Assembly (NCBI RefSeq): GCF_000219725.1
Contig: NC_015732.1
Coordinates: forward strand, 3,106,972-3,170,971
Reading direction: 5' to 3'
DNA from: Gracilinema caldarium DSM 7334
Lineage (GTDB): Bacteria; Spirochaetota; Spirochaetia; Treponematales; Breznakiellaceae
DNA length: 64,000 bases
Each line of letters opens with the position of its first letter. The first letter of the stretch is position 1. Below are positions 43,358-51,039 of this stretch, piece after piece. The translations under genes were made by a program, and so were the position numbers. The notes beneath the pieces are model-generated. The model was not told the origin of the DNA. It saw only the letters and a list, made by a program, of their open reading frames with translations, and made no database searches.

Positions 43358-43431
43358 GGGGAATTAGCTCAGTTGGCTAGAGCGATTGGTTCGCAATCAA
43401 TAGGTCAGGGGTTCGAATCCCCTATTCTCCA
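43358..43431 (+). tRNA. tRNA-Ala(CGC)
   Basis: The sequence folds as a full cloverleaf. The acceptor GGGGAAT pairs with ATTCTCC, including a G3-U70 pair, the classic alanine identity element. The D stem is GCTC/GAGC, the anticodon loop TTCGCAA gives anticodon CGC, and the T arm is AGGGG-TTCGAAT-CCCCT. Discriminator A is at 43431 and CCA is not encoded. A TTGATT-18-TAATAT promoter candidate lies at 43318-43347. A strong terminator follows at once, so it is transcribed alone. Confidence 0.92.
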
Positions 43432-43464: not shown

Positions 43465-43475
43465 ACTTTAGAATG

Positions 43476-43606
43476 AATAGGGGATTCGAACCGAGTGAGC
43501 ACCGCGCGGAAGCGTGGGAAGGTGCCCATGGAGGGGCACCGCCAGCGAACGAGGCGGCCCGGAAACCTGAGGCACGATGCCGAAGGTTGTAGGGCGAATC
43601 CCCTAT
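43476..43606. repeat. 130-bp GC-rich element bounded by inverted copies of the tRNA-Ala 3' end
   Basis: The left end (43477-43488) and right end (43595-43606) are perfect 12-bp inverted repeats. The right copy is identical to tRNA positions 43414-43425, and the left end matches the tRNA's 3' part in inverted orientation over 18 nt. Inside, three hairpins can form: GGTGCCC/GGGGCACC, CCGCC/GGCGG and AACCT/AGGTT (with an inner GGC/GCC). No open frame of note. It overlaps the last bases of the AAA+ gene. It looks like a small structured mobile or repeat element targeted to the tRNA end. Confidence 0.65.
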
Positions 43607-45606
43607 ACTTTAAAACCAATAGTATGCTGTAGATGACTGCGGCTTTTGAGTTCTAGTTCCAGTTCGCTGATTATTTCTTGGGGTGTCGGACTATCTACGA
43701 ACGCAAGCCTTTTTGCAACGCTTGAAAAGTCGCCAGGGACCAGGCCTTCCAAGTTGTGGATACGAAAACAAGCTTCTGTATCAAAGGTTATATGGGAAAA
43801 ATAGCGGCGGGCCAAAGTAAGACGCTGATCTGGAGTTGGCGGGTAGAATTCAACCTTATAGGGGAAACGGCGGAAGCTTGCACCATCCAGGGCCTTAATA
43901 AAGTTAGTTGTGGCAATAAACAGGCCCTTAAAATCATCCATCTGATTAAGAAATTCATTGGTCTGACTGCGTTCCCAACTCCTTTCATTTTTTTCGCGGT
44001 TAAGGATAAAAGAATCGGCTTCATCTAAAATCAGGACATTGTTTTCAGCTTCCTTAAAGGCATCACGGATCCGATCTTCCGTAACACCAACATAAGGACT
44101 AAAAAGATCGCTTGCCCTTTTAATGATAGGCTGAAGTTGTAACTCAGTGGCAATATGAATAGCCAAGGCTGATTTTCCCGTACCGGGTAATCCATAAAAA
44201 AGGATATTTAATCCTTGCTGGGTTCGAGAAAATGTATCATACCATTTTTTAATCCGATCTAAAAGGACATAGGGATCTATTGAAAGATGTAAAAGCCCCA
44301 CATCAATTTCTTCAATTTTATTATTTATCTTCTGATTGTCTTTCATAAGCATTTCCTGACTGCGGCTGAGCATATCCTTGGCCACCTCTAGAATCCGTTC
44401 CTGGCTTTCGCAGTCTTCCTTGAGTAGGGAACAAATTTCATAGACCTGACGTATCCGAGATGGGTTTGCCTTAAAATCCTTGGCAAGTTTATCTATATCC
44501 GTAGAAGAAAAGAGGTTCGTAACATTATTGTTTGTTTCCCACATTTGTTTTCTATATTGAATACTTGCGGGTTTAAAACCAATGATAATGTGCATTCGGC
44601 GCAGGACTGAAGCTGGAATTCTGTTAGTTTGATTAGTGATGAATATTATTTTTATTGTTGCATTATCTAAAAATTGATTAACAATCGCTTTGAACGTCGA
44701 AGGTGTACCCTGGGCAGAAAGCACGTCTTCGCTGTTTAAAAGAGTATCCGCTTCATCAATAATGAGAACCTCTTTTTTTGAGTCCAATAATTTTGCTGAA
44801 AGATAGAGATTTGAAAGAGGACGGCTACCATCCACATCGTCGGTCATCAAACTATAGGGGATTAGATTACACGAAAGAGAGAGGGCTTTGCTCAACTCTG
44901 ATTTTCCAGTCCCTGGCTCACCATAAAAAAGTAAAAAAGCAGGACCATGGCGCTTTAACGCCGCTTTAGCAGAAAGTATGGTTGCCTCAGGCAGATCAAA
45001 GGTTTCTAAGGCAAAATAGGGCGGCTCTAGAACATGCAATAAAAATGATGAAAGGGGCCGATTGTTTATATCTTCCAGGTAATTATGCACATATTTATTT
45101 AAGCCAACTCTGATATTTATGTGCCTTAAATCAAATAATGCAAACCTTTCAAATTCCAATAAACCTAACTTTCCCATAGGACTATGCAGTCTAAGTTCTG
45201 CTACAAGCTCATTTTTCGATATGTGGACCCAAGTAGTAAGTATAACCAATTGGCAGGCCGCAGATTGTTTTTCAAAATATGCAGTAAAAGCATTCATACT
45301 ACCATAAATGTACAGGAACTCTACTATTTTGATGTGATGAGCCTGTAAATTAAAACGGTCTGCCAGCTCTGTCAGCTTAGGGTTTGTCCGTTGCATATGC
45401 ATCGATACATATTCTTTGATTTCGTTAACTGCCTTATCCCGGTTTACACTGTCTTTTTCCTCCGCCGATATATTTGGAATGAGCACTTTTAATAAATCAC
45501 ACTGATTGTGAATAAGATCATACAAATCATCACCATGTTCCTGTGTATTCCAGCATTGCAGTAAAAGCTCAGTATAACGATAATCCCAGTAGGTAAAGCC
45601 CTCCAT
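43603..45606 (-). CDS. double AAA+ ATPase of a defence-like locus
   Basis: 667 residues from the ATG at 45606, with GGAGG 7 nt upstream. The first 200 residues are a helical domain of no recognised family. Two AAA+ modules follow: Walker A GEPGTGKS (229-236) with Walker B VLIIDEAD (280-287), and Walker A GLPGTGKS (472-479) with Walker B VLILDEAD (524-531). Module 2 has sensor FIATTN (563-568) and a paired Arg at SFRRFP. A tandem CDC48-like AAA layout without a protease domain suggests a remodelling motor. It is the last gene on the strand after two DUF262 genes and is preceded by one copy of a 21-nt repeat. Role in phage defence is inferred only from neighbours. Confidence 0.85.
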   Translation of the reverse strand: MEGFTYWDYRYTELLLQCWNTQEHGDDLYDLIHNQCDLLKVLIPNISAEEKDSVNRDKAVNEIKEYVSMHMQRTNPKLTELADRFNLQAHHIKIVEFLYIYGSMNAFTAYFEKQSAACQLVILTTWVHISKNELVAELRLHSPMGKLGLLEFERFALFDLRHINIRVGLNKYVHNYLEDINNRPLSSFLLHVLEPPYFALETFDLPEATILSAKAALKRHGPAFLLFYGEPGTGKSELSKALSLSCNLIPYSLMTDDVDGSRPLSNLYLSAKLLDSKKEVLIIDEADTLLNSEDVLSAQGTPSTFKAIVNQFLDNATIKIIFITNQTNRIPASVLRRMHIIIGFKPASIQYRKQMWETNNNVTNLFSSTDIDKLAKDFKANPSRIRQVYEICSLLKEDCESQERILEVAKDMLSRSQEMLMKDNQKINNKIEEIDVGLLHLSIDPYVLLDRIKKWYDTFSRTQQGLNILFYGLPGTGKSALAIHIATELQLQPIIKRASDLFSPYVGVTEDRIRDAFKEAENNVLILDEADSFILNREKNERSWERSQTNEFLNQMDDFKGLFIATTNFIKALDGASFRRFPYKVEFYPPTPDQRLTLARRYFSHITFDTEACFRIHNLEGLVPGDFSSVAKRLAFVDSPTPQEIISELELELKSRSHLQHTIGFKV

Positions 45607-45638
45607 ACTAAAACCTCCAGGATTATTGTAAATTACAG

Positions 45639-45659
45639 GAGTGCCAAATCCGGTCACAG
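45639..45659. repeat. 21-nt direct repeat, copy 1
   Basis: This 21-mer, beginning GAGTGCCAAA and ending CCGGTCACAG, recurs at 49274-49294 with one mismatch (A/T at position 10). It sits 4 nt after the DUF262 stop and 33 nt before the AAA+ start codon. It may be a shared operator or the scar of an insertion. Confidence 0.75.
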
Positions 45660-45663
45660 GTGG

Positions 45664-47427
45664 CTATGGATGAGAAGAAATAGGCGTATTTTGTGATAAA
45701 TAAATATCAACTAACTTTTTTATTTCTTCTTGATGTTTTCTAATTTGCTCTTTACCCCATGTATTGTTTTCAAAACTTTCAAACATTATGAGGCGCTTCA
45801 AACTTGAATTATCATCCTGGAATAATTTTTTCTTATCGATTGGGTTTTCCTTATTACCTTTCGAATTTTGAGATGCGGAAATTAAACATAAATTTCCTAT
45901 TCCATTATAAAGAGAAATATTCTCAGGATCATTTCGTCGGGCATGTTCTTGCGATAAAAGATGCTCTCTAGAAGTTAATTGCCTGAATTTAAAATTATTA
46001 AATTTATTTTTTATGTTTTCTATTTTATTTATAATAGTATCTGGAGCGCCTTCTTTCTTTTCCTTATAAAGTTTCCAAAGTAAAAAATCTATAAAATAGA
46101 GATTATATATAGTTATATTAGGGTAGCTTAAACAAACTCTATTAAACTTACTTTTTGCTATTTCCCACAATTCTTGTCTATACTTTTCTGCGGTAGGATT
46201 CTCGTTTTTGCTAAGCCATTTCATTATTTTATGTAACCAATCATTATACGTGTTACTAGAATCAGAATAATACAACATCAGTTCTATTTTAACTATCTCT
46301 TCATCATCTTCAAAGGTTTTGATTATCGTATTAGAATCGGCATTATCTAATTTTCTAATACCCCAATTTTGTTTTGTTTCATCTGCATTTGTTATATCTT
46401 GTTTGATTACATAGGTATCAAACATCTTTCGATATTTCAGTAAATCATTAATAAATATTTTAGGTTCTGGATCGATTTCTTTAAATTGTTGTAAAAGTTT
46501 TTTATCATCAAGTGCTACTTGTTCATACCTTAACTTTAACACTTGTAGTAAAAAATTAGAGAAATTTATTATAGACTTGTATTTATCTTGAGTATATTTT
46601 TCTTTATTAATAGTATCTTTATCATTATTATGTTCAATAATTTCCTTTAATGTATAAGAGACGTGATCATTCGTTTCATTATCTGCATCTTCCATTTTTA
46701 CATTTACATAATTGGACATATCTGAACAAGCTTCCCATATCATAGCAAATTTTTGGTGATCCATTTCATCATCAGTAGCGAGCTTTCCCATCAAAAGTGC
46801 TTTTACAATTTCGTGTTTCTCTAGCTGTTCACCTCGATTGTTCATTATTTCAAAATAATGATTTAAATCTGTATCTTTTGGTATATCTACATGGAATAAA
46901 TAAACTTTATTATAAAATGTATCTGAAAAATCTGTAACATTTTCTATAGATCTTAATTCTTCTTGGATAATTTCTATCGCATCTTTGATCGCAACTATAC
47001 TTATATCTTGGTCATTAAAATCACATAATACATTTATAAAATCGTTTTTATCAGTATTGTACAAACGATCTATATAGTTTTGAACCCTTTTTCGAGAATC
47101 GAACTTAAGGTTCGATGTTTTAACAACAAATAGTATATCATTATCTTTATTCTCATAATTCCAATTTTTTAAGACTAGATTTATCAATACAAGCGTTGTA
47201 AACCTTTGCTGGCCATCAACCAACTCAAAAACACCATCTTCACGTTTAAAACAAACTAGAGAACCTAGATAATAATTTTTACTTTCTCCATTTTGCGAAT
47301 ATTCATTGATATCCCTAATTAACTGAGCTATTTCAGTCTTCTCCCAAGCGTAATTGCGTTGATATCGTGGGATTATATAATAATTATTTGATAATATTTC
47401 TTCTATGCTTAAGGGCTCATATTTCAT
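45664..47427 (-). CDS. DUF262/HNH (GmrSD-like) protein
   Basis: 587 residues. The N-terminal DUF262 ParB/Srx-like domain has IPRYQRNYAWE (19-29) and the signature DGQQRFTTL (71-79). A long A+T-rich, Lys/Asn/Glu-rich middle follows. The C-terminal DUF1524-like HNH part (487-535) has REHLLSQEHARR and IGNLCLISASQNSKGN. This is the architecture of GmrSD-type modification-dependent restriction enzymes, fused in one chain. One base line in the gene counts to about 17% G+C, far below the rest of the window, a sign of transfer. It overlaps the broken DUF262 gene by 11 bp. Confidence 0.85.
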   Translation of the reverse strand: MKYEPLSIEEILSNNYYIIPRYQRNYAWEKTEIAQLIRDINEYSQNGESKNYYLGSLVCFKREDGVFELVDGQQRFTTLVLINLVLKNWNYENKDNDILFVVKTSNLKFDSRKRVQNYIDRLYNTDKNDFINVLCDFNDQDISIVAIKDAIEIIQEELRSIENVTDFSDTFYNKVYLFHVDIPKDTDLNHYFEIMNNRGEQLEKHEIVKALLMGKLATDDEMDHQKFAMIWEACSDMSNYVNVKMEDADNETNDHVSYTLKEIIEHNNDKDTINKEKYTQDKYKSIINFSNFLLQVLKLRYEQVALDDKKLLQQFKEIDPEPKIFINDLLKYRKMFDTYVIKQDITNADETKQNWGIRKLDNADSNTIIKTFEDDEEIVKIELMLYYSDSSNTYNDWLHKIMKWLSKNENPTAEKYRQELWEIAKSKFNRVCLSYPNITIYNLYFIDFLLWKLYKEKKEGAPDTIINKIENIKNKFNNFKFRQLTSREHLLSQEHARRNDPENISLYNGIGNLCLISASQNSKGNKENPIDKKKLFQDDNSSLKRLIMFESFENNTWGKEQIRKHQEEIKKLVDIYLSQNTPISSHP

Positions 47428-48781
47428 TTTCTATTCCTCCATATATAAATTTACATATTTTTTCAGTTCCAATAACACTACTTTCATTTTTCTTTTTATA
47501 ATTTTTAAATTGATAATCATGTAAATCGGCTGGGCTTAGACTATTGCTTATTCTATTAAAAACTTTTATTGCTTCACTATGTATAATTGTTTCTACAGTA
47601 ATTCTATTCTTCTCGCAACGCAATGTATAAACTAATTTATAAAATGCTTGATAAATATTTTCAAAATCATCATTAATAAAGCCAAATTTATCAATGAATG
47701 CTATCATAATATTCTCAAATAGATTTCTAACTTTTTCATCTCCGCTCCTCGACCAGCCACTATATCCAAAACAATATTCTTCATAAAATTCAACAAATTG
47801 TTTTGATTTTGCTTTTATTTCATCTTCTTTATTTAAATCAAATATCTGCTCACGAAGACTAATATAATAATCAACATATTCAAAAAATCTTTTACCGTTA
47901 ATTATGGGGCTTGTAATTTAGAATGGGAAAGTTTGCGCAACATTTAAATTTATTAATATTTTATTTTTTTTTAAATTTTCAAATAATCCATCTAACATTC
48001 GTATTCCGGTTTCATAAGGATATATTTGGGGTTGTTTAAGTGAAACACCTTTAAATTCGTCTATTTCATCTTTTGTAAAATTATATTTATATTCATTTTT
48101 ACTCCATTTACGAATTCTAAAGAGATGATTGCCGAGTATTGGTTTTAAAGATCCGTTACTTATCGATTTTTCCCATCGTTCAACACATTTTTCTCGTTCT
48201 TCTTCACTATCGGACTCCATTTCACGTAAATGAAATGCTTTTAATAAATCATACGGTTCAAGTGGTTTACCTCTTGCATTTTGAGCATCAAATAGTTGAA
48301 ATGCTTCTTCCTGATCAAGAACTGTAAATAGAACAACTTCACATTTGTTCATGATTTTTCTTCTAAAATCTTTTTTATCTTTATCGTTTTCCAGTTTTGC
48401 ACTTATCCATTGATTTATTACATGGTAATTATAAACAATATTGTTTTTTGAAATAGCATTGTTTTTAATTGGTTTGTTTAGTAATAACACATCTTCTTTG
48501 TCATTTTTTTCGTCTAACGCGTATAATAATATAGAAATGGTTATAAGTCTCTGCTGTCCATCTACAATATCATATTTACCATTATTCTCGTGAAGAATTA
48601 TATTTCCAATTCTAAAATCCTTATTTTTAATAAGGATATATTCATAAATATCTTCTAAGAGCTGAAAAACATTTTTATCAGTCCATTTATATGGTCGTTG
48701 ATACTCAGGGATCTCCAGATTTAATGTTTTATCTAGCAAAGCATTTAATTTTATTATTTCTTGTGTTGGTGTTGTAGCCAT
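47417..48781 (-). pseudogene. second DUF262-domain gene, interrupted by one in-frame TAA
   Basis: A 455-codon frame broken at codon 288 by TAA (47918-47920). The first part has the DUF262 motifs IPEYQRPYKW (24-33) and DGQQRLITI (74-82), plus FQLFDAQNARGKPLEPYDLLKAFHLRE. After the stop the same frame continues without another break as ITSPIINGKRFFEYVDYY through to IYGGIENEI. CAA to TAA is the simplest cause (Gln in 'FQITSPIINGK'). There is no clear HNH domain. The ATG at 48781 has AGAGGA upstream, and a TTGATA-17-TAAAAT promoter precedes it. A truncated 287-residue product with an intact DUF262 domain could still be made. Very low G+C like the neighbour. Confidence 0.75.
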
Positions 48782-48830
48782 ACTATTCCTCTTTATAAAA
48801 GCCAAAACTATTAAAAATAATAAAATATAT

Positions 48831-48859
48831 ATTTTAACATGGGAATTATAATTTATCAA
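48831..48859 (-). promoter_or_regulatory. internal promoter ahead of the DUF262 pair
   Basis: Reading down: TTGATA (48859-48854), 17 nt, TAAAAT (48836-48831), with a leader of about 45 nt ahead of the ATG at 48781. The two DUF262 genes could be expressed independently of the unknown gene upstream. Confidence 0.45.
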
Positions 48860-48887
48860 ACACAATTTTAAATCATTATGTTTCCCT

Positions 48888-49292
48888 CTATTCTATTGTC
48901 ACCAGCTGAAATAACTCATCATAATAATACACAAAACGGCCATGCTGAAAACCAATGAGTGCTTTTTTATCCTTTTTTTTATAATTTATTACAACCTCTT
49001 TTATCCCAATACAGGGCTCTGATATGTGCTCCCTTGCAACACCATTTGAGCACCTATCCAAAGATACATACCAAAAGTCATTGCAAATAAGGTAATACTC
49101 TTCTGTAGCCGCAAGGAAACGGTACCCCTTACGTTCATACCGTCCTAGTAGTTCTCTTTTCTCTGTACCATTTTTTATTTCATAGCTAACTAAATAGTTT
49201 TCATCTTGGGTTATCATATAGGTGGATAAAACAGCTACTGTTTCCTCTTGCACATAATCAATGTACCCTATAAGAGTGCCAATTCCGGTCAC
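48888..49292 (-). CDS. 134-residue protein of unknown function in the defence-like locus
   Basis: 134 residues in the longest frame, rich in Tyr and charged residues (YYLICNDFWYVSLDRCSNG, IGFQHGRFVYYYDELFQLVTIE), all-beta in character, without signal peptide or known motif. The GTG at 49292 lies inside copy 2 of the 21-nt repeat and has no ribosome site. A GTG at codon 14 or the ATG at codon 26 are possible alternatives, so the start is uncertain. The gene is divergent from the WYL regulator and leads the strand carrying the DUF262 and AAA+ genes. It could be a genuine small component or the remnant of a larger gene. Confidence 0.5.
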   Translation of the reverse strand: MTGIGTLIGYIDYVQEETVAVLSTYMITQDENYLVSYEIKNGTEKRELLGRYERKGYRFLAATEEYYLICNDFWYVSLDRCSNGVAREHISEPCIGIKEVVINYKKKDKKALIGFQHGRFVYYYDELFQLVTIE

Positions 49293-49294
49293 AG
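49274..49294. repeat. 21-nt direct repeat, copy 2
   Basis: The sequence matches 45639-45659 except for one base. It lies 12 bp upstream of the -35 box of the WYL regulator gene, in the divergent control region with the 134-residue gene. Confidence 0.75.
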
Positions 49295-49306
49295 ATATTT
49301 CATCAT

Positions 49307-49335
49307 TTGCAGAAATGCCTATAGTAGGTCATAAT
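49307..49335 (+). promoter_or_regulatory. promoter of the WYL regulator gene, leaderless arrangement
   Basis: TTGCAG (49307-49312), 17 nt, CATAAT (49330-49335), 9 nt, then ATG at 49345, with no Shine-Dalgarno. Confidence 0.5.
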
Positions 49336-49344
49336 TACCATATC

Positions 49345-50331
49345 ATGTATAAACAATTATCAGAGATACTTACGGCGGCCCGATTAATATCCCGTACCAG
49401 CGGCGCAACGATTAAGGAGCTCGAAAACCACCTGCATCTATCCCGCCGTTCTGTATATCGGCTTCTGGATACTTTGGAAGAACTTGGGTATCCCTTGTAT
49501 GATGAATTTCATGGCAAAGAACGGGTCATTTTTCTTAATGAACACCGGGACAACCTGCGCTGGTGGATTCCCTATCCTCAGGTAGAGCTTAACTCAGAAG
49601 ATATCATACTCTTAGAGTATTTATTTAAAGAAGCCGCAAAGACCTCAGCGGTGGCCAACGAGATAAGACGGCTCAAAGAAAAATTGGGGCCCCTGCTGGC
49701 AGAAGGCGGCTACACCCTTGCTGGCGACCTTCATCAATCTGGAATTCTTCCTGCGCCTTCCCTTTCCAAAAAGTTTGATGCATCTAAACACCAGCTTCTT
49801 AAAACCATACTCCAGGGCATACAAGAGCGCGCAGTCTGCATTGTTTCCTATCAAGCCATATCGAGCGCAACGGTAAAAACCTTTCGTATTCATCCCCTTA
49901 TATTGATGGAAAAATATGGCGGTTTGTACCTTTTCGTGTTTGTTCCCTACTATGGAAACATTCGTATATTAGCCGTCGAACGCATTAAAAACTTTGAGCT
50001 TACCGAAGAAGAATTTGCTATGCCAGCCCACTTTACTCCCGAGCCATGGCTAACAGACCCCTTTGGCATTATACTCAACAAAACCTTTACAGCCCGTATT
50101 TGGTTTTCTCCGGAACAAGCCCCCTATATTCAAGAACTGAATTGGCCCGAAGGGTCCAATCTGGAAACCCAAAATGATGGGTCCCTGATCCTTACCGTAC
50201 AAACAGCCGCTGATTATGAACTAAAACGCTGGGTTCTCAGTTTCGGTTCATCAGCCTGTTTGCTCGAACCTGAGCATTTACGAAGGGAAATACAAAAGGA
50301 ACTTCAGGATATGGAAAATCTGTATCAATAA
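49345..50331 (+). CDS. WYL-domain transcriptional regulator
   Basis: 328 residues from the ATG at 49345, the natural start of the helix-turn-helix domain (YKQLSEILTAARLISRTSGATIKELENHLHLSRRSVYRLLDTLEELG, an HTH_11/DeoR-like fold). A WYL domain follows at about 150-235, with VSYQAISSATVKTFRIHPL in the ligand-binding position and the usual W-Y-L replaced (GLYLFVFVPY). A C-terminal WCX-like domain ends the protein (about 235-325). WYL regulators of the BrxR/CapW group control phage-defence loci and sense nucleic-acid-related signals. Here it is divergent from the AAA+/DUF262 cluster. It may bind the repeated 21-mer. The ligand is unknown. Confidence 0.85.
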   Translation: MYKQLSEILTAARLISRTSGATIKELENHLHLSRRSVYRLLDTLEELGYPLYDEFHGKERVIFLNEHRDNLRWWIPYPQVELNSEDIILLEYLFKEAAKTSAVANEIRRLKEKLGPLLAEGGYTLAGDLHQSGILPAPSLSKKFDASKHQLLKTILQGIQERAVCIVSYQAISSATVKTFRIHPLILMEKYGGLYLFVFVPYYGNIRILAVERIKNFELTEEEFAMPAHFTPEPWLTDPFGIILNKTFTARIWFSPEQAPYIQELNWPEGSNLETQNDGSLILTVQTAADYELKRWVLSFGSSACLLEPEHLRREIQKELQDMENLYQ

Positions 50332-50400: not shown

Positions 50401-51039
50401 ATGAAGAACAAAACTTTTTTCCTCCTTATTTTAGCAATGACTTTGCTATTATCTTCCTGTATTGAAATAACCCAACATATCAGATTGGAAAACAATACCA
50501 TAATAAACAACACAAGAATTGTTATTCAAAAAGCCTTGCTTACTATGGCCCAGAGTTATGGTAATGATTCTGACCTGTCATCACTTGAATTTAACGATGA
50601 AACAATCTATCAAATTAGTGAACAAATACCAAAAGAAAATTTTGTATCAATTAAAAAAGTCAATAATGAATTAGAAAATGGTCTTGAGATAACTGTTCGA
50701 TACCCGCGAACTAAAAGACCCACAGTACAGAATGATGATGTTGCACCAATCTTTTATCCCTATTTAAAAAATAAAACCTTGGTTGTAGAATTTAATAATA
50801 TGAGTTCTACCAATATTGATGAAAATAATCAAATGGTTTCGGCTATACTTTCTGGCTTTAAATATCGCTTGTTTATTGATAGTTCCGTATTAAGTTCACC
50901 CAAAAAGGCAACTTTATATACTAAAGATGAAGAAACGACCTATACTATGCCTCTAATAAACTATTCAAACTTTACTCTGGTAGAAATATCCATGGCATAT
51001 CTCTTAAGCGGCCAATCTTTACGTTTGGTAATTGAGTAA
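50401..51039 (+). CDS. lipoprotein of unknown function
   Basis: 212 residues with a clear signal peptide and lipobox LSSC (Cys20). The mature protein is beta-rich and polar (ITQHIRLENNTIINNTRIVIQK, LEITVRYPRTKRP, TLVVEFNNMSST), similar in pattern to YdgA-like or spirochaetal surface lipoproteins but with no recognised domain. A ribosome site AAGGGG lies 7 nt upstream. It stands alone, after the WYL regulator and converging with the ABC transporter genes. Confidence 0.7.
   Translation: MKNKTFFLLILAMTLLLSSCIEITQHIRLENNTIINNTRIVIQKALLTMAQSYGNDSDLSSLEFNDETIYQISEQIPKENFVSIKKVNNELENGLEITVRYPRTKRPTVQNDDVAPIFYPYLKNKTLVVEFNNMSSTNIDENNQMVSAILSGFKYRLFIDSSVLSSPKKATLYTKDEETTYTMPLINYSNFTLVEISMAYLLSGQSLRLVIE

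Follow-up and report, generated by a model that had tools for sequence, protein, structure and literature searches.

A broken TgvAB-type restriction cassette between the AAA+ and WYL genes of a widespread bacterial pair in Gracilinema caldarium

The locus described here is part of the complete 3.24-Mb genome of Gracilinema caldarium DSM 7334 and was analysed within a stretch of 64,000 nucleotides, hereafter the window, whose positions are used throughout. Four genes lie on the minus strand, in the order orphan ORF, broken DUF262 gene, intact DUF262-nuclease gene and tandem AAA+ ATPase gene, and a WYL-domain regulator gene lies on the opposite (plus) strand, divergent from the AAA+ gene. This arrangement, given in a preliminary description made from the DNA letters, was borne out by the ORF list and by Pfam. 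The features are as follows.

43603 to 45606, minus strand: tandem AAA+ ATPase gene, 667 aa, with a helical N-domain of about 185 aa, a D1 module and a D2 module with a YVG pore loop (Pfam AAA twice)
45639 to 45659, minus strand: copy 2 of the 21-bp repeat, with the AAA+ ATG about 33 bp downstream
45664 to 47427, minus strand: intact TgvB-like gene, 587 aa, DUF262 (QR, DGQQR, FxxxN) plus GmrSD_C/DUF1524 His-Me nuclease
47417 to 48781, minus strand: broken TgvA-like gene, DUF262 plus DUF7834, with an in-frame stop at codon 288 of 454
48888 to 49292, minus strand: orphan ORF of up to 134 aa, 37% G+C, with an uncertain start that may lie downstream of the GTG
49274 to 49294, minus strand: copy 1 of the 21-bp repeat, lying over the orphan ORF's 5' end, with 50 bp between it and the WYL start
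49345 to 50331, plus strand: WYL-domain regulator gene (Pfam HTH_11, WYL and WCX)

The AAA+ gene most likely starts at the ATG at 45606, which is preceded by a GGAGG ribosome site and fits the alignment of homologues; the GTG at 45657 proposed earlier is probably 51 bases too far upstream and falls inside the 21-bp repeat. The most likely WYL start, 49345 (MYKQ...), matches that of its closest homologue. The low G+C content that had been pointed out for the DUF262 genes amounts to 26-28%, against a mean of 46% in 33 long ORFs elsewhere in the window, while the AAA+ and WYL genes have 40-45% and the gap just upstream of the DUF262 pair has 19%. Promoter-like sites lie within this gap, directly 5' of the first DUF262 gene, so co-transcription of the pair with the 134-aa ORF may be absent. 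The product of that ORF is an orphan as judged by its sequence, with no match in Pfam, PADLOC, NCBIfam, the plasmid collection or the 393 genomes of the phylum. Homology to a 142-aa gene situated between the WYL and AAA+ genes at another locus (L020) was rejected as the two did not match, and the single-sequence model of the 134-aa protein (pLDDT 36) was too poor for a structure search.

Two further features adjoin these genes. Downstream of the WYL gene, at a distance of 70 bp, a putative lipoprotein gene (50401 to 51036, plus strand, 31% G+C) reached the cut-off of no family in Pfam and other profile scans. On the other side, a structured element of about 130 nt (43475 to 43607, plus strand) lies between tRNA-Ala(CGC), at 43358 to 43431, and the AAA+ stop codon; its predicted fold has an energy of -70.8 kcal/mol (z -7.2), with compensatory changes at 17 of the 29 predicted pairs among seven sequences. 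About a dozen genomes of this order have relatives with about 70-86% identity, which in eight of the ten loci fetched lie near a tRNA, for the most part directly downstream (Ala, Asn, Leu), and the ends of the element copy the adjoining tRNA's own 3' end, inverted at the 5' end and direct at the 3' end. No Rfam family reached its gathering score with this element, which is possibly a tRNA-targeted mobile or attachment element.

In our analysis of the DUF262 pair, Pfam identified GmrSD_N in both genes, GmrSD_C (His-Me/HNH) in the second and DUF7834, divided by the break, in the first, in agreement with the DUF262 motifs and the C-terminal HNH-like motif previously read from the letters. The motifs QR, DGQQR and FxxxN are present in both proteins, and in an alignment with five homologues the nuclease subunit keeps all three together with the His-Me H, N and N (H..N..N). 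The first gene had been called broken, and it is: a single stop, at codon 288, interrupts one continuous frame of 454 codons running from the ATG at 48781. A frameshift was ruled out, as five intact homologues align through the stop in the same frame throughout. Homologous pairs in the same order were found on plasmids of Vibrio, Citrobacter, Aliarcobacter, Pseudoalteromonas, Acinetobacter, Escherichia, Klebsiella and Picosynechococcus. All ten of the plasmid loci examined carry the pair without this AAA+ gene, profile searches of these ten returning no real member of the AAA+ family and one marginal match of 14.6 bits, and in two of them (Vibrio aerogenes and an Escherichia coli plasmid) the pair is located inside a type I restriction-modification operon. 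These results support the earlier proposal that the locus holds a horizontally transferred restriction cassette of the GmrSD family.

As far as sequence can tell, the pair is a two-gene GmrSD type IV restriction cassette of the known TgvAB type. In Vibrio cholerae, tgvAB encodes a two-protein GmrSD system set in a type I restriction-modification operon, and neither protein works alone (PMC11411939). The cassette in our study resembles TgvAB of VPI-2 in its adjacent genes, with DUF262 first and the DUF262-DUF1524 His-Me nuclease second, and in all the DUF262 motifs. It is important to note that this likeness was drawn through plasmid pairs, the operon-embedded pairs from V. aerogenes and E. coli plasmids serving as proxies for VC1767/VC1766, and that identity to those pairs is about 28-41%. 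Unlike TgvAB, the pair in G. caldarium stands between AAA+ and WYL genes rather than in a type I operon, and its first gene is broken, which makes it a broken relative and not a working TgvAB. A second two-protein system, GrwAB (PMC12137116), known from VSP-II of WASA V. cholerae, likewise belongs to a two-gene GmrSD family in which both genes are needed, but there the nuclease-bearing GrwA is the first gene, whereas the nuclease gene is the second here. Because TgvAB needs both proteins and the first gene has a stop, restriction by this pair is unlikely; the cassette is probably inactive at this locus, its restriction activity lost.

Regarding the AAA+ protein, Pfam placed two AAA modules, each with Walker A and Walker B, as the preliminary description had read them, and the family alignment shows that both modules keep Walker A, Walker B, the sensor Asn and the double arginine, and that the D2 pore loop is of the YVG type, with the G invariant and the V nearly so. 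The closest solved relatives, best by structure and by sequence alike, are of the Cdc48/p97 type. The structure search with our model (mean pLDDT 81) was dominated by hits to AAA modules. The N-terminal region, described earlier as 200 unrecognised residues, has no sequence match in the PDB, to which the model adds that its approximately 185 residues are mostly helical. The protein shares two classical AAA modules and a hydrophobic D2 pore loop with the Cdc48/p97-type tandem ATPases, but its N-domain matches no known one in sequence, and membership of the CDC48 family was rejected (TIGR01243, 59 bits against a cut-off of 802.65). IetA models gave the best match to its D2 module (113 bits), but membership of IetAS was also rejected (IetA, 99.4 bits against the NCBIfam cut-off of 510); the protein has two AAA modules and, among the adjacent genes scanned, no protease family match that would indicate an IetS-type gene. 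From the Walker motifs, sensor Asn, double arginine, D2 pore loop and Cdc48/p97-type relatives we infer that the protein would form a hexamer that probably threads protein substrates through the YVG loop of D2; it would thereby dismantle or remodel a protein complex, and the helical N-domain would pick the substrate.

The divergent gene had been described as a WYL-HTH regulator, and its product indeed carries the HTH_11, WYL and WCX domains; it matches, with an E value of 1e-75, the WYL protein encoded next to the AAA+ gene in a genome of the same family. The probable role of this protein is to sense a nucleic-acid signal that marks infection or damage, and to control the promoters bearing the 21-bp site. 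The locus resembles those of BrxR/CapW-type regulators in having an HTH-WYL-WCX protein, a GmrSD enzyme and a candidate site at two promoters, and differs in that the WYL protein would here regulate the AAA+ gene through putative binding.

Special attention was given to the distribution of the AAA+ gene. Relatives were found in 47 of the 393 genomes of the phylum, and also in Fibrobacter, Syntrophaceae, Burkholderiaceae, Pseudomonas, Rhodocyclaceae and others, on plasmids and on some viral contigs. We surveyed 53 loci at first and 86 in all, from many phyla, and a WYL gene lies within 2 kb of the AAA+ gene in 39 of the 86, where chance would predict fewer than one, the 42 genomes searched having about 100 WYL domains over about 140 Mb. 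DUF262, by comparison, is near the AAA+ gene in only three of the 53 loci, within 6 kb in the window and at L076 and L082. The nearest relative, in a genome of the same family (L011), has the AAA+ gene followed by the WYL gene, beside fabG-like and biotin-carrier genes and without DUF262. By this sequence survey, the tandem AAA+ and WYL genes are a conserved pair independent of DUF262. Our search of the literature found no description of an AAA+-WYL or DUF2779-WYL system and no name for the pair.

Elsewhere, the neighbours of the pair include DUF2779 (6 of the 79 scanned), PD-(D/E)XK nucleases, a PLD-HerA protein, helicases of the SNF2 and ResIII types and, at two loci, a lone GmrSD gene. Matches to PADLOC families numbered 96 among 79 neighbours of AAA+-WYL pairs and 14 among 79 neighbours of AAA+ genes without WYL, few genes being involved in either set. 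A defence role of the AAA+-WYL pair is possible, since its neighbours are often nucleases or helicases. At L076 and L082, both in the same phylum as G. caldarium, a GmrSD gene and the AAA+ gene are no more than 1.5 kb apart, where about 0.17 such cases would be expected; in both cases it is a single longer gene (646-654 aa) and not a DUF262 pair. This hints that AAA+-WYL pairs sit in defence islands more often than chance would place them, but defence genes cluster anyway.

Some loci of this survey have contents of their own. On plasmids of Desulfosarcina and Pantoea (L018, 9938 to 15947; L021, 10754 to 16519) the AAA+-WYL pair has the same three companions, one gene for an unknown protein, one whose product matches PLD weakly and one for an SNF2-type helicase, possibly as a recurrent five-gene unit. 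On a Methylomonas plasmid (L023, 7266 to 10868) the gene after AAA+ encodes an RtcB RNA ligase, and several viral contigs (L198, L200-L203) retain a shorter AAA+ relative of about 570 aa beside a gene of deaminase-like type and further phage genes that look early.

The two copies of the 21-bp repeat, CTGTGACCGGAwTTGGCACTC, are identical at 20 of 21 positions and are the only copies in the genome at up to three mismatches. Between them they enclose precisely the orphan ORF together with both DUF262 genes; copy 2 starts a few bases after the DUF262 stop, and a -10-like TACAwT follows both at equal spacing. Judged by sequence and position, the repeat would be either a shared operator for the WYL protein or an insertion footprint. 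The operator is plausible in that another WYL protein, the repressor BrxR, relies on two boxes of similar kind within one island that also has a GmrSD enzyme (PMC9122601), and co-regulation is favoured by the repeat together with the -10-like element and the similarity that extends past both copies. A target duplication that arose when the block of orphan ORF and DUF262 genes inserted, with no regulatory role, would explain why the copies flank exactly that block; against it, the 17 bases downstream of the copies agree at 10 positions (P ~0.005), and such similarity, continuing on the same side of both, is unexpected for a simple 21-bp duplication, nor is there an integrase or transposase gene among the neighbouring ORFs. 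We regard this duplication as a serious alternative, although not one that we would expect to hold.

Taken together, these observations make it likely that the locus is composite, a broken restriction cassette of a known family having been inserted into a widespread, uncharacterised AAA+-WYL locus. The autonomy of both pairs, like the gene content, the single stop and the uniqueness of the repeat, was observed directly; the insertion history would be that a low-G+C cassette of the TgvAB kind came to lie between the divergent WYL and tandem AAA+ genes, which form an accessory pair of patchy occurrence across bacteria. Several points weigh against the composite reading. The stop codon may reflect an error in sequencing, or it may be read through; the DNA fetched for 33 of the 86 AAA+ loci contains no WYL gene, which means that members of the AAA+ family do not always go with one; the repeat may be no more than an insertion footprint; and the excess of GmrSD genes at L076 and L082 may not be pure chance, although defence genes tend to cluster.

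For the AAA+-WYL pair itself, we consider it possible, while leaning against it, that it is a non-defence stress module, such as a DNA-damage-inducible unfoldase, alongside which the restriction cassette merely landed. The pair is chromosomal and patchy and occurs in ordinary contexts such as that of L011, and some WYL regulators, PafBC among them, have DNA-damage genes under their control (PMC6789036); the frequent nuclease and helicase neighbours and the carriage of the AAA+ family on plasmids argue against this. Some AAA+ loci without a WYL gene (L106, L109) also have ordinary gene contexts, kept between genomes. A rather unlikely proposal is that the pair and its swappable neighbours (DUF2779, PD-(D/E)XK, PLD-helicase, GmrSD) make up a modular immune system, undescribed so far and spanning phyla, whose unfoldase, under WYL control, would activate or dismantle a partner complex. 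Very doubtful is one multi-gene immune system, with the AAA+ protein loading or remodelling the DUF262 proteins, the WYL protein controlling all through the 21-bp site and the stop an error or tolerated, which has in its favour the 21-bp sequence shared by both promoters and the GmrSD genes adjoining AAA+-WYL pairs in two other genomes, and against it the plasmid pairs without AAA+, the rarity of DUF262 near AAA+ loci, the single longer gene at L076 and L082 and the broken first gene.

The preliminary description had joined the five genes into one immune locus. On the neighbourhood counts we rejected a single four-gene system, the DUF262 pair occurring without the AAA+ gene on the plasmids and the AAA+-WYL pair without DUF262 nearly everywhere else, and the combination probably does not form a separate system. 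Of the two findings that the description had named as counter-evidence, one was made, the conservation of the AAA+-WYL pair without DUF262, and the other was not, as the AAA+ protein falls in no known housekeeping family. A known type IV cassette, broken here, is now set apart from an unnamed and widespread AAA+-WYL pair, which can be tested alone. If the pair proves to be neither an immune nor a stress module, a false four-gene defence system will have been kept out of the catalogues; if it is one of them, it would add an unfoldase-based branch under WYL sensing.
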